From NCBI RefSeq assembly GCF_028464065.1, contig NZ_CP116808.1, forward strand, positions 1,453,886-1,517,885: a stretch of DNA of 64,000 bases, written 5' to 3'. Below are positions 4,672-8,461 of the stretch, in pieces. Under the pieces are notes generated by a model. The model was given only the letters and a program-made list of their open reading frames with translations. It had not been told where the DNA came from and searched no databases. Each line of letters opens with the position of its first letter. Position 1 is the stretch's first letter. The position numbers and the translations under genes were made by a program. The stretch is from Saprospira sp. CCB-QB6 (GTDB taxonomy: Bacteria; Bacteroidota; Bacteroidia; Chitinophagales; Saprospiraceae).

Positions 4672-5517
4672 CTAAAGTCGATAAAAGCTGTCACTAGTTC
4701 CATCCTGAATGTTCCGAAGTAGATCTTCTAAGCGATTTTCTACCCCCTCCAAACAAGCTGGCTCCTCATATTCCTCTGCATTATAATGATATAATTGCCA
4801 AGCTTTATCGACATACTCCAGCGCTGAACGATGTTCCATCCAATCTCCTGAGTTTAAGTAAGTAATCTGCCCTGCAGCTGTCACAATCTCCCGATGCTGC
4901 GGCCGATGTACATGCCCACAAACTACATAGTCATACCCCTTTTCTATCCCCAGCTCTATTGCCTTCTGCTCAAAATCATTCATTTTCTGAACGGCAGCCT
5001 TAACCGAAGCCTTTAATCGCTTAGAAAACTGACTAGGGGGTATCCCAAATGGCTTTAACAAACGGTTGAGCCCCCGATTCAACATAATACTCCAATCATA
5101 AAACTGTCCCCCTATTTTGGCCCAAAAGCGCCCCTTATGAACAGATGGATCATAAGCATCTCCATGAAAGAACCAAGCCCTTTTTCCATCTAACTCCAAA
5201 AGTAACTTATCCTGTAAATAGATATTCCCTAACCGAAAAGGCGTTAACCGACGCAAACTGTCATCATGGTTGCCCGTCAAATAATAGACTGGCACCCCAG
5301 CCTCCGCCAAATTCATGAAATGCCGCAATACCGCCCAATGCGCCTGCGGAAAAAATCCCTTCCTAAATTGCCAAATATCTATAATGTCCCCATTCAAGAT
5401 GAGCATTTTAGGCACCAAACTCTGCAAATACTGCAATAAGGCCTTAGCCTCTGAGCCCTGCGTACCCAAATGCACATCCGAAAGGACCAAGATGTCTATT
5501 TCTCTTTTCTCTGCCAT
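4672..5517 (-). CDS. plcP: Calcineurin-like metallophosphatase, probable PlcP-type phospholipase C
   Basis: 281-residue metallophosphoesterase with all metal-binding motifs: DVHLG (about 14-18), GDIID, GNHD, FFHGD and GHVH. Such proteins are often annotated as UDP-2,3-diacylglucosamine diphosphatase (LpxH-like). PlcP of Sinorhizobium and marine bacteria belongs to the same superfamily and removes phospho-headgroups from phosphatidylcholine or phosphatidylethanolamine to give diacylglycerol during phosphate starvation. Known plcP genes often lie beside btaA or a glycolipid synthase. Here the gene follows btaA and btaB by 16 bp, which favours the PlcP role. No signal peptide is visible, so it is cytoplasmic or peripheral at the inner membrane. 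The function is inferred mainly from this context. Confidence 0.75.
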   Translation of the reverse strand: MAEKREIDILVLSDVHLGTQGSEAKALLQYLQSLVPKMLILNGDIIDIWQFRKGFFPQAHWAVLRHFMNLAEAGVPVYYLTGNHDDSLRRLTPFRLGNIYLQDKLLLELDGKRAWFFHGDAYDPSVHKGRFWAKIGGQFYDWSIMLNRGLNRLLKPFGIPPSQFSKRLKASVKAAVQKMNDFEQKAIELGIEKGYDYVVCGHVHRPQHREIVTAAGQITYLNSGDWMEHRSALEYVDKAWQLYHYNAEEYEEPACLEGVENRLEDLLRNIQDGTSDSFYRL

Positions 5518-5533
5518 AGGGGAAAATTGGAGA

Positions 5534-6175
5534 TTACTGCTTCTTGCCTACAAAACTAATGTACTCCCATACCCCCATGTAAGCCGAACGCACTTTATTC
5601 ACTATAGGCTCAAAATTATCTCGCAAAAAAGGACGCAAATGCCCGTCCATCCGCACATGGTGATTTCCCATATGACTCTTGAACCAGCCTTGCTTGCTGT
5701 CGTGAAAATCAACTACAGCAATATATCCCCCTACTTTGAGGTCTTTCTTGGCCTGCTTCAATAAATCTTCCCACTGTGGGTTGATCATCGTCAAAGAATA
5801 AGAAAACAAAATAGCATCATACTGCCCATTTTGCCCCTCCGCATCCTGACCATAAGGCTCATGCACTACCTGCACCCGCTGACCAAATGGCGCCACTTTC
5901 TTACTGGCAATATCTACCATATCCGTAGATACCTCATAGGCCTTGATCTCCGCCGCAGGAAAGGTCTCGGCCAATATCTTCGTATTGAAACCCGTCCCAC
6001 ATCCTACTTCTAAGATCTTTATCGGCGCATTGCGCTCCAAAGGAATGTCTTTGATGACCTCTACCCGCCCAAAGAGAAAACTCCAACGCGTTAGATCATA
6101 AATCTTTGACTGAAATTTGTAGTACTGATCCATACTACTCGCCTGCTCTCTCGAGTCTTTATGTGCTGTTCCCAT
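5534..6175 (-). CDS. btaB: SAM-dependent methyltransferase, probable BtaB
   Basis: Predicted to add three methyl groups to diacylglycerylhomoserine, completing the betaine lipid DGTS. Class I methyltransferase fold: motif I is ILEVGCGTGFNT, followed by an acidic residue (KAYEVSTD), post-I and motif IV (DAILFSYSLTM). The C-terminus is the short form usual for BtaB. The ATG at 6175 gives 213 residues; an upstream in-frame TTG (6199) would bring it within 2 bp of the btaA stop. The middle place between btaA and the metallophosphatase supports the assignment. As a lone methyltransferase it would not be assignable. Confidence 0.8.
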   Translation of the reverse strand: MGTAHKDSREQASSMDQYYKFQSKIYDLTRWSFLFGRVEVIKDIPLERNAPIKILEVGCGTGFNTKILAETFPAAEIKAYEVSTDMVDIASKKVAPFGQRVQVVHEPYGQDAEGQNGQYDAILFSYSLTMINPQWEDLLKQAKKDLKVGGYIAVVDFHDSKQGWFKSHMGNHHVRMDGHLRPFLRDNFEPIVNKVRSAYMGVWEYISFVGKKQ

Positions 6176-6201
6176 GCTCTGATTTTTAATGCGGTCCAAA
6201 C

Positions 6202-7359
6202 TTATTTCACTGTCCCTAAATAAACACTGCCATAAGTCCCTACCCGATCCTGAAAATGACTTTCCTTGAGCTCATCCTCCGATGAGACCCAACTAACTTT
6301 CTCCTTCACAAAATCAGGAAAGAAATCAATGCGCATGGCCGCAGAACGCATCAAAATTTTAGTGCCCGGACGACTATTCGCCAAAATACACTGCCACTCT
6401 TCCTCTAAGGCTGGCACATCATGCGCCGCCAACCAATCCTGATGATCCAATAATACATAATGACTGTACTTGCCCGGATTGTCCTTGAGAAACTGCGCAA
6501 AACTAGTCGTATGCGTGTGGATCTGATCCGCCCGCTCTCGCAATGACAAATAGTTCTCCTCTCGCAAATAACTAGGACAACAATCTTTGGTATAATGTCC
6601 ATTTACATAGACCTGCCAAAAGTAGTTTTCCTTGATGTCCAATTCCGTAAATACATGCCGTACCGCATCTACCACAAAACTACTCACCCCACCAGGATAT
6701 TCTTCAGTAATCAATCGACGCTGCGCTCTAGGTACCCCCGCCAAAGCCAATGAAAAATGTCGGCTAATGGTCCAGCGTACCGCCTTGTTAAATAACTTGC
6801 GCTCTACCTGATCAAAGTATTGCTCCTGCTCTTCCAAACTATCCGCCTTCATCAACTTCAATACCTTGGAGTGCAAACTCGGACGCATCTGCATATATCG
6901 CACAAATAACCAAGCTAATGTCCCCGAAGACCCTCTATAATAAAAGCTCTTCTTAGGCCCCTTGCCCTCAAAATAACTCATCTTCTGATCCCAAAACTCC
7001 TGCGCATAAGTCGGCAAATGCTGACGCAATTGCTGCTTGTACACTTCCTGGGCCCGAGAGTGCTTCCCATCCCCAAAATAATCGTAAAGCTCATCATAAG
7101 AACTATGCTTAAATAAGCTCTTCTTAAATTCTAATAAGGCATTCTGCCGAGAATTTAAATCAATACAATGAATGGCCTTGGGGTCATCCAACAGATAATC
7201 TAGGGCATTGCAACCAGCACTCGTAATCATCACAATCTCGCTATCTGGCTCAATTTGCATCAATTCACGGTCGCAGCGGGGATCTTCCCAACAAATGTTA
7301 TACACAAGGCTCCCCCCATGCACATTCTTAAATACCCAATCTCTTAAATGGTTAATCAT
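6202..7359 (-). CDS. btaA: Diacylglycerol 3-amino-3-carboxypropyltransferase, BtaA-type (DUF3419)
   Basis: BtaA moves the aminocarboxypropyl group of SAM onto diacylglycerol, the first committed step of DGTS betaine lipid synthesis. The protein matches the DUF3419/BtaA pattern: VYNICWEDPRCD near the N-terminus, a SAM-binding region (ITSAGCNALDYLL followed by CIDLNSRQNALLEFK), and a C-terminal HYVLLDHQDWL segment. I start it at the ATG at 7359 (385 residues); the longer frame begins with TTG and adds 24 residues unlike the family. It is first in a three-gene operon with btaB and the PlcP-like phosphatase. No Pho-box was identified upstream. Confidence 0.88.
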   Translation of the reverse strand: MINHLRDWVFKNVHGGSLVYNICWEDPRCDRELMQIEPDSEIVMITSAGCNALDYLLDDPKAIHCIDLNSRQNALLEFKKSLFKHSSYDELYDYFGDGKHSRAQEVYKQQLRQHLPTYAQEFWDQKMSYFEGKGPKKSFYYRGSSGTLAWLFVRYMQMRPSLHSKVLKLMKADSLEEQEQYFDQVERKLFNKAVRWTISRHFSLALAGVPRAQRRLITEEYPGGVSSFVVDAVRHVFTELDIKENYFWQVYVNGHYTKDCCPSYLREENYLSLRERADQIHTHTTSFAQFLKDNPGKYSHYVLLDHQDWLAAHDVPALEEEWQCILANSRPGTKILMRSAAMRIDFFPDFVKEKVSWVSSEDELKESHFQDRVGTYGSVYLGTVK

Positions 7360-7512
7360 AAAGTTTAGTTTGTTAGCCCTGACTAAGGGCGGCTGAGGGC
7401 CTTTGCTTTCAGACCCAACTAGTTTGGGCAAAAATAAACATTTTTTGCAGACTGACTAAACTAGATTTTATGCAATATGGGCTTTCCCTCCCTTGCTGCT
7501 TGCTTTTGTTTT

Positions 7513-7627
7513 GGGGCCTCCTGCCTGCGGCAGGCGCTACGTTGCGCAGCTCGCTATTCGCTCGGCCCTGCGGCGGCTTTGCCGCCTTGGTCTGGCCCTT
7601 TGGGCCACTGCTGCACATCGCTAGGCC
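7513..7627 (-). repeat. Structured GC-rich repeat, copy 2 (class A)
   Basis: P1 is GGCCT/AGGCC, P2 GGCCC-AAA-GGGCC, P3 GGCGGC-AAA-GCCGCC and P4 CCTGCC-GCA-GGCAGG. It lies about 150 bp upstream of btaA. Its 5' side continues into a tail (7628-7838) shared with copy 20. Confidence 0.9.
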
Positions 7628-7838
7628 AAATAGGAGTTCTGCGCTTTGGCCATACTTTGATAAAAATTTTAGGCTAGTCGAGGCATTTTTTAAAGGCATA
7701 GCTGTAGCTATGGCTGAGAAAAATAAGGATGAATAGCAAAAAATTAAATCAAAGGATAGAAGTGGCAGGACTTCTATTTAGCCTTTGCCGTTTGGCCTTC
7801 GGCCATGGCGGCTTCGCCGCCTGCTATATGGGCCTGTA
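7628..7838 (-). repeat. AT-rich tail shared with 51937-52126
   Basis: About 160 bp (7628-7785) are nearly identical, in inverted orientation, to the DNA beside copy 20, with only about three differences seen by eye. Similarity continues through the hairpins GGCC-TTC-GGCC and GGCGGC-TTC-GCCGCC to about 7838. Both tails abut a structured repeat on the same side, giving a composite unit of about 300 bp. Short frames cross it, but none is a credible gene. Confidence 0.85.
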
Positions 7839-7930
7839 GGGACTATTTAAAATTTTGTGTCTGCCCTTTCCTGCCCCTAGGGGATTATTGGCCTTTTATA
7901 ATAAGGTATTGCTGCGCAATAATGTATGAA

Positions 7931-7948
7931 TGAGGATTAAAACCCTCA
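7931..7948. repeat. Small-loop hairpin, member 1
   Basis: Arms TGAGG/CCTCA enclose an ATTAAAAC loop. It belongs to a group of hairpins with near-constant loop and variable, complementary arms. Confidence 0.5.
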
Positions 7949-8107
7949 TAAAATTAAAAGACCCAAATTTTATTCAGATACATAAAATCCTGAACAGTCC
8001 CAACAGTCCTTTCTCAACTTTACAAATGCTATTTTACAAATCCCGAATAGCTTTCCCTTTGAATTGTTTGGGGTTGGGCTCCGAAATCACGCTATTATAT
8101 AGCTCTC

Positions 8108-8121
8108 TGGGTTTCAACCCA
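8108..8121. repeat. Small-loop hairpin, member 2
   Basis: Arms TGGG/CCCA with loop TTTCAA; followed by ACAGCAAGAAG, a context resembling that of member 3 (ATAGCGAGAAG). Confidence 0.5.
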
Positions 8122-8155
8122 CAGCAAGAAGGGAGGCCATACTAGACCCAATAAA

Positions 8156-8185
8156 ATGGGCTGAAGGTTAAAACCTTCAGCCCAT
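8156..8185. repeat. Small-loop hairpin, member 3
   Basis: Perfect 12-bp arms (ATGGGCTGAAGG and complement) with loop TTAAAA. No adjacent T-run, so not a normal terminator. Confidence 0.6.
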
Positions 8186-8244
8186 AGCGAGAAGAGGATT
8201 GATTAACTAAGTGAGAAAGATAAAAGGCCAAAAGATTTCAATCC

Positions 8245-8264
8245 ATGCGGGTTTTAACCCGCAT
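8245..8264. repeat. Small-loop hairpin, member 4
   Basis: Perfect 7-bp arms ATGCGGG/CCCGCAT with loop TTTTAA. Confidence 0.6.
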
Positions 8265-8298
8265 TCTATAAAAACATTGCGAAGCAATACCATCCTTG

Positions 8299-8318
8299 CT
8301 GTAGGTTTCAACCTACAG
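8299..8318. repeat. Small-loop hairpin, member 5
   Basis: Perfect 7-bp arms CTGTAGG/CCTACAG with loop TTTCAA. Only 5 bp separate it from structured repeat copy 3; member 6 (50645) likewise precedes copy 19. Confidence 0.6.
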
Positions 8319-8323
8319 TAAAC

Positions 8324-8445
8324 GGCCTAGCGATGCGGCGGGGTGGCCCGCAGGGCCAGACCAAGGCGGCAAAGCCGCCGAAGGGCCGAGCAGACCTGCG
8401 AGCCCCAAAGCGTAGCGCCGACGAGCGAAGCGAGGCGGAGGCCCC
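8324..8445 (+). repeat. Structured GC-rich repeat, copy 3 (class A)
   Basis: P1 is GGCCT/AGGCC, P2 GGCCC-GCA-GGGCC and P3 GGCGGC-AAA-GCCGCC. The core hairpin is GCAG/CTGC; the 3' hairpin is closed by CCG/CGG. The GGCCCC end is 16 bp from the flippase stop codon. Confidence 0.9.
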
Positions 8446-8461
8446 AAAACAGCAGCATCCA

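Follow-up and report, generated by a model that had tools for sequence, protein, structure and literature searches.

Positions 4672-7359 of the window, by which we mean the whole 64,000-nucleotide stretch of Saprospira sp. CCB-QB6 contig NZ_CP116808.1 analyzed here, are filled by three open reading frames on the minus strand, encoding BtaA, BtaB, and a calcineurin-like metallophosphoesterase (Table 1). The genes are adjacent and separated by gaps of 26 bp (btaA-btaB) and 16 bp (btaB-plcP), exactly as the preliminary description of this locus had reported. A longer btaB reading frame with a TTG start at 6199 was considered and rejected, since this codon is not conserved in congeners. The order btaA-btaB-plcP is syntenic in 6/6 genus members found, among which BtaA identity falls to 71-72%. 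Comparison of the window with three congeners gave dN/dS values of 0.005-0.02 for btaB and of 0.04-0.05 for each of the other two genes, and the triplet is under strong purifying selection. Conserved synteny together with low dN/dS shows that the triplet is not a chance arrangement, and the short spacing, from which co-transcription is inferred, makes a single operon probable.

Table 1. Features of the btaA-btaB-plcP locus (positions in the window)
Feature	Position	Strand	Remarks
btaA, SAM:diacylglycerol 3-amino-3-carboxypropyltransferase (DUF3419)	6202-7359	-	385 aa; ATG at 7359
btaB, SAM-dependent N-methyltransferase of the DGTS pathway	5534-6175	-	213 aa; conserved ATG at 6175
plcP, metallophosphoesterase, predicted intracellular phospholipase C	4672-5517	-	281 aa; PF12850/PF00149
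Probable operon promoter	7419-7464	-	Conserved block with Bacteroidota-type -7 element

The window BtaA matches PF11899 (DUF3419) over its full length (profile positions 6-382 of 385) with 388.6 bits (E 4e-116), far above the cut-off of 28.2 bits, and its gene is single-copy in the genome (4.24 Mb, 99.9% complete). An alignment of 13 BtaA rows contains 37 invariant columns. The predicted structure (pLDDT 94.5) comprises a SAM-methyltransferase-type core (Z about 15; for 1m6y_B, Z 15.4, rmsd 2.6, 157 aligned) and a large helical insert; a Foldseek search with this model returned no match at E 0.001 or better, and a sequence search for a solved BtaA structure found none. BtaB, a class I methyltransferase, matches Methyltransf_25 (E 4e-15), carries the SAM motif LEVGCGTG, and is 31-33% identical (E 1e-25 to 2e-26) to the methyltransferase encoded beside btaA in Sinorhizobium and Rhizobium. 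Both proteins belong to the same two families as BtaA and BtaB of Rhodobacter and rhizobia, where btaB also directly follows btaA, an arrangement kept across the window genus and in nearly all related loci, including those of Bacteroidota. In contrast to this shared layout, the window BtaA is only 27-30% identical to rhizobial (alphaproteobacterial) BtaA and belongs to a separate deep clade, from which no characterized enzyme was found in the searchable literature. The acceptor is accordingly assumed, by analogy, to be diacylglycerol and not some other hydroxylipid, and how far the product is methylated is likewise an assumption.

Automatic annotation names proteins like the product of the third gene UDP-2,3-diacylglucosamine diphosphatase, and the window phosphatase could accordingly be the LpxH of lipid A synthesis, placed beside btaAB by accident. 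Its best PDB matches, in sequence and in fold, are indeed LpxH (fold comparison with 6ph9: Z 17.3, rmsd 3.5, 208 residues), and the seven metal-ligand positions of LpxH are kept (D14, H16, D44, N83, H118, H202, and H204) and invariant in alignment A3. However, the protein is only 24% identical to E. coli LpxH, whose Arg80 corresponds to His84, and 26% identical to the LpxH-like protein of its own genome. It is 39% identical (E 7e-51) to P. aeruginosa PA3219 and 31% identical to S. meliloti PlcP, both mutant-tested. These two references (L113 and L114, respectively) were assigned by their neighbors and by a mutual identity of 46.6%, compared with a published value of 46% (PMC8528852); the P. 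aeruginosa plasmid segment L113 carries a phosphatase gene followed by a glycosyltransferase gene, matching the order described for the PA3219-PA3218 pair (PMC8528852).

In a 52-row tree, two LpxH proteins were split from all PlcP-like proteins with support of 99/98, and the window protein fell on the side of the mutant-tested PlcPs, in a clade of PlcP-like proteins from Bacteroidota (100/100). Given the long branches leading to LpxH, we rely on the LpxH/PlcP split and not on fine placement. On the LpxH equivalog model NF003743, the window phosphatase scored 58.9 bits against a cut-off of 134. A second gene, C1:764861-765583, scored 94.9 bits, also under the cut-off, and is a separate and better LpxH candidate in a genome that contains LpxC and makes lipid A. 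The case that the preliminary description had named as speaking against its reading, a phosphatase grouping firmly with LpxH and being the sole LpxH candidate, is the opposite of what the tree and the second gene indicate. Together with the recurrent linkage to btaAB described below, these data make an LpxH function of the window protein very unlikely, and its sequence identifies it as PlcP-like. Databases nevertheless name window-type PlcPs as LpxH; the same label is found on PlcP-type proteins of other records (L113, L116-L119, and further plasmid records), including the protein identified here as PA3219 PlcP, and represents systematic misnaming.

The window PlcP resembles those of S. meliloti, P. 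aeruginosa (PA3219), and Phaeobacter (MED193_17359) in family, metal ligands, length, and linkage to a synthase of a non-phosphorus lipid. It differs from these PlcPs in being linked to btaAB rather than agt, in sequence (31-39% identity to the S. meliloti and P. aeruginosa proteins), and in belonging to the Bacteroidota PlcP clade. Rhizobial plcP is located elsewhere in the genome than btaAB, whereas the window plcP adjoins them. The S. meliloti record CP090106.1 (L114, L177), 3.7 Mb long and labelled pSymB, contains both plcP and btaAB and is probably the chromosome, mislabelled. Within the phylum, F. johnsoniae Fjoh_4577 is, by annotation, a PlcP of the same family (pf12850) and is induced at low phosphate (PMC8115612), but it is an orphan gene, in contrast to the window plcP.

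The association of plcP with btaAB recurs in other genomes in several arrangements. The phosphatase gene lies in line downstream of btaAB in the window genus and in Competibacter-type gammaproteobacteria (L068, L072, L075-L078), and in line upstream in one Saprospiraceae-type genome (L173) and in Lentisphaerota loci; in other Saprospiraceae-type genomes it is convergent with btaAB (L040, L171) or divergent from them (L172). Some Planctomycetota and one verrucomicrobial locus also have plcP near btaAB, and a Rhodothermia-type locus (L014/G328) carries a rhizobial-like btaA, btaB, and then two PlcP-like genes in a row. On the BtaA tree (113 scored rows), the presence of a plcP neighbor requires at least 13 gains or losses, a count in which L106 and L082 are doubtful members. 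The two parts have thus been brought together many times, and the variety of arrangements argues for a functional pair. Of the sequence evidence that PlcP feeds BtaA, we regard this recurrence in varied gene orders as the strongest. A PlcP-like gene is also present in 33/46 genomes with BtaA versus 130/349 others (p 1e-5, kinship ignored). No paper on plcP beside btaAB in Bacteroidota was found among open-licence full texts.

Most BtaA loci of Bacteroidota have no adjacent plcP. Window-type PlcP was found, at a threshold of E 1e-18, in 163/395 sampled Bacteroidota genomes, mostly away from btaA; since most of these genomes lack btaA altogether, PlcP also serves other lipids. In 10 of the 29 PlcP genes examined, the following gene is not part of btaAB but glycosyltransferase-like, encoding about 340-380 aa. 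Such pairs were seen at L121, L123, L124, L136, L137, L140-L144, and at L116 (Parabacteroides), in whose record the neighbor is annotated as a glycosyltransferase; the MKILYAIQGTGNGH-type genes of several loci look like glycosyltransferases, and a second type is seen in others. These pairs are a candidate Bacteroidota glycolipid counterpart of plcP-agt. Most other PlcP genes examined lie opposite a gene that reads as a chorismate synthase.

The preliminary description had allowed for transfer from Proteobacteria and had implied that such operons are rare in Bacteroidota. Neither view was borne out. BtaA was found in 46/395 sampled Bacteroidota genomes, belonging to 24/171 genera. In a 120-row BtaA tree, built by a quick method with SH-aLRT support alone, all 37 Bacteroidota rows of the window type formed one clade (96), apart from Verrucomicrobiota, Planctomycetota, Balneolota, and gammaproteobacteria, with rhizobia the most distant, in keeping with the low identity of their BtaA given above. 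A recent acquisition of btaAB-plcP from Proteobacteria would be compatible with the gene order btaA-btaB-plcP shared with Competibacter-type gammaproteobacteria. However, the BtaA proteins of the latter fall outside the Bacteroidota clade, and their PlcPs group with those of other Proteobacteria, not with the Bacteroidota clade that contains the window PlcP. Such an acquisition is therefore extremely improbable, and the separate BtaA and PlcP clades imply that the same gene order was assembled separately in gammaproteobacteria and Bacteroidota. Because the Bacteroidota BtaA rows form one group, the operon was most likely assembled within this phylum. One Tenacibaculum bin falls in a Saprospiraceae-rich BtaA group, which suggests that some exchange may have taken place among lineages of the phylum. 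The btaA-btaB-plcP gene kit is widespread and old in Bacteroidota, and the window represents a good example of it rather than a surprise.

The preliminary proposal that btaA, btaB, and a phosphatase of the PlcP rather than the LpxH type belong to one probable operon is supported by the identities and order of the genes, their conservation and selection, the PlcP-type ancestry of the third protein, and the recurrent plcP-btaAB linkage, all of which the present analysis shows. We consider it highly probable that this single operon serves to convert phospholipids of the cell itself into DGTS, a betaine lipid free of phosphorus, by three reactions modelled on those of characterized relatives. PlcP would cleave the phospho-head group of phosphatidylethanolamine or a similar lipid, yielding diacylglycerol; BtaA would then use SAM as the donor of a 3-amino-3-carboxypropyl group and attach this group to the free hydroxyl of diacylglycerol to form diacylglycerylhomoserine, the amine of which would be methylated three times by BtaB, giving DGTS. 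In Phaeobacter MED193, PlcP is required for DGTS (PMC4796936). No paper reporting DGTS in Saprospira was found among open-licence full texts.

The -7 element of Bacteroidota promoters has the consensus TAnnTTTG. The sequence TATTTTTG at 7436-7429, roughly 70 bp upstream of the btaA start codon, fits this consensus and is flanked by CTAGTTT/AAACTAG, and the surrounding block (Table 1) hardly differs among four genus members and is unconserved in two more distant ones. On the basis of the known consensus, this block is probably the operon promoter; a scan for Sigma-70-type promoters gave no more matches than shuffled sequences. Positions 7465-8461, which separate the operon from a flippase gene, hold no convincing gene over about 1 kb and are rich in repeat-like stretches, including a 13-pair hairpin at 8185-8156 and repeated GC-rich blocks.

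Phosphate limitation would be the likely trigger of the operon. An alternative is that a betaine or homoserine lipid belongs permanently to the membrane of this genus, made constitutively or under another type of control rather than as a starvation response, the genus having lost the usual genes of phosphate uptake and sensing. Profile searches of the genome found no PhoU, no PHO4/Pit family member, no Na/Pi cotransporter (Na_Pi_cotrans), and no PstB above the cut-off (best score 142 of 343 bits), and PhoU was absent in all six genus members, one of which is only 63% complete. A Pho box scan of the 64 kb with an E. coli-type consensus gave 2 weak matches versus 3.6 expected, none of them near the operon, and the upstream block resembles an ordinary Bacteroidota promoter. 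In contrast, phosphate regulons of Bacteroidota can operate without Pst: F. johnsoniae strongly induces a PlcP when phosphate is low, and PstSABC is missing from plant-associated Bacteroidetes (PMC8115612), so that PhoBR may still control the operon despite the missing Pst and PhoU. A link between btaA and the lack of PhoU, seen among 60 relatives, was dropped, as it was absent across the phylum (29/46 versus 251/349, p 0.23). We regard a fixed, starvation-independent role as rather unlikely, and phosphate limitation as a reasonable candidate trigger. A broader version, in which the DGTS route is standing, or not triggered by phosphate, in a genus that has lost every recognized Pi importer and PhoU and would economize phosphorus through lipid exchange and the organic phosphorus of other cells, is more doubtful still and is offered as speculation.

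A btaA-btaB-plcP operon of this type would add Bacteroidota to the groups in which betaine-lipid synthesis has a diacylglycerol source dedicated to it. Members of this phylum are likely sources of DGTS to be considered in marine lipid surveys, in which algae or Alphaproteobacteria often receive the credit.
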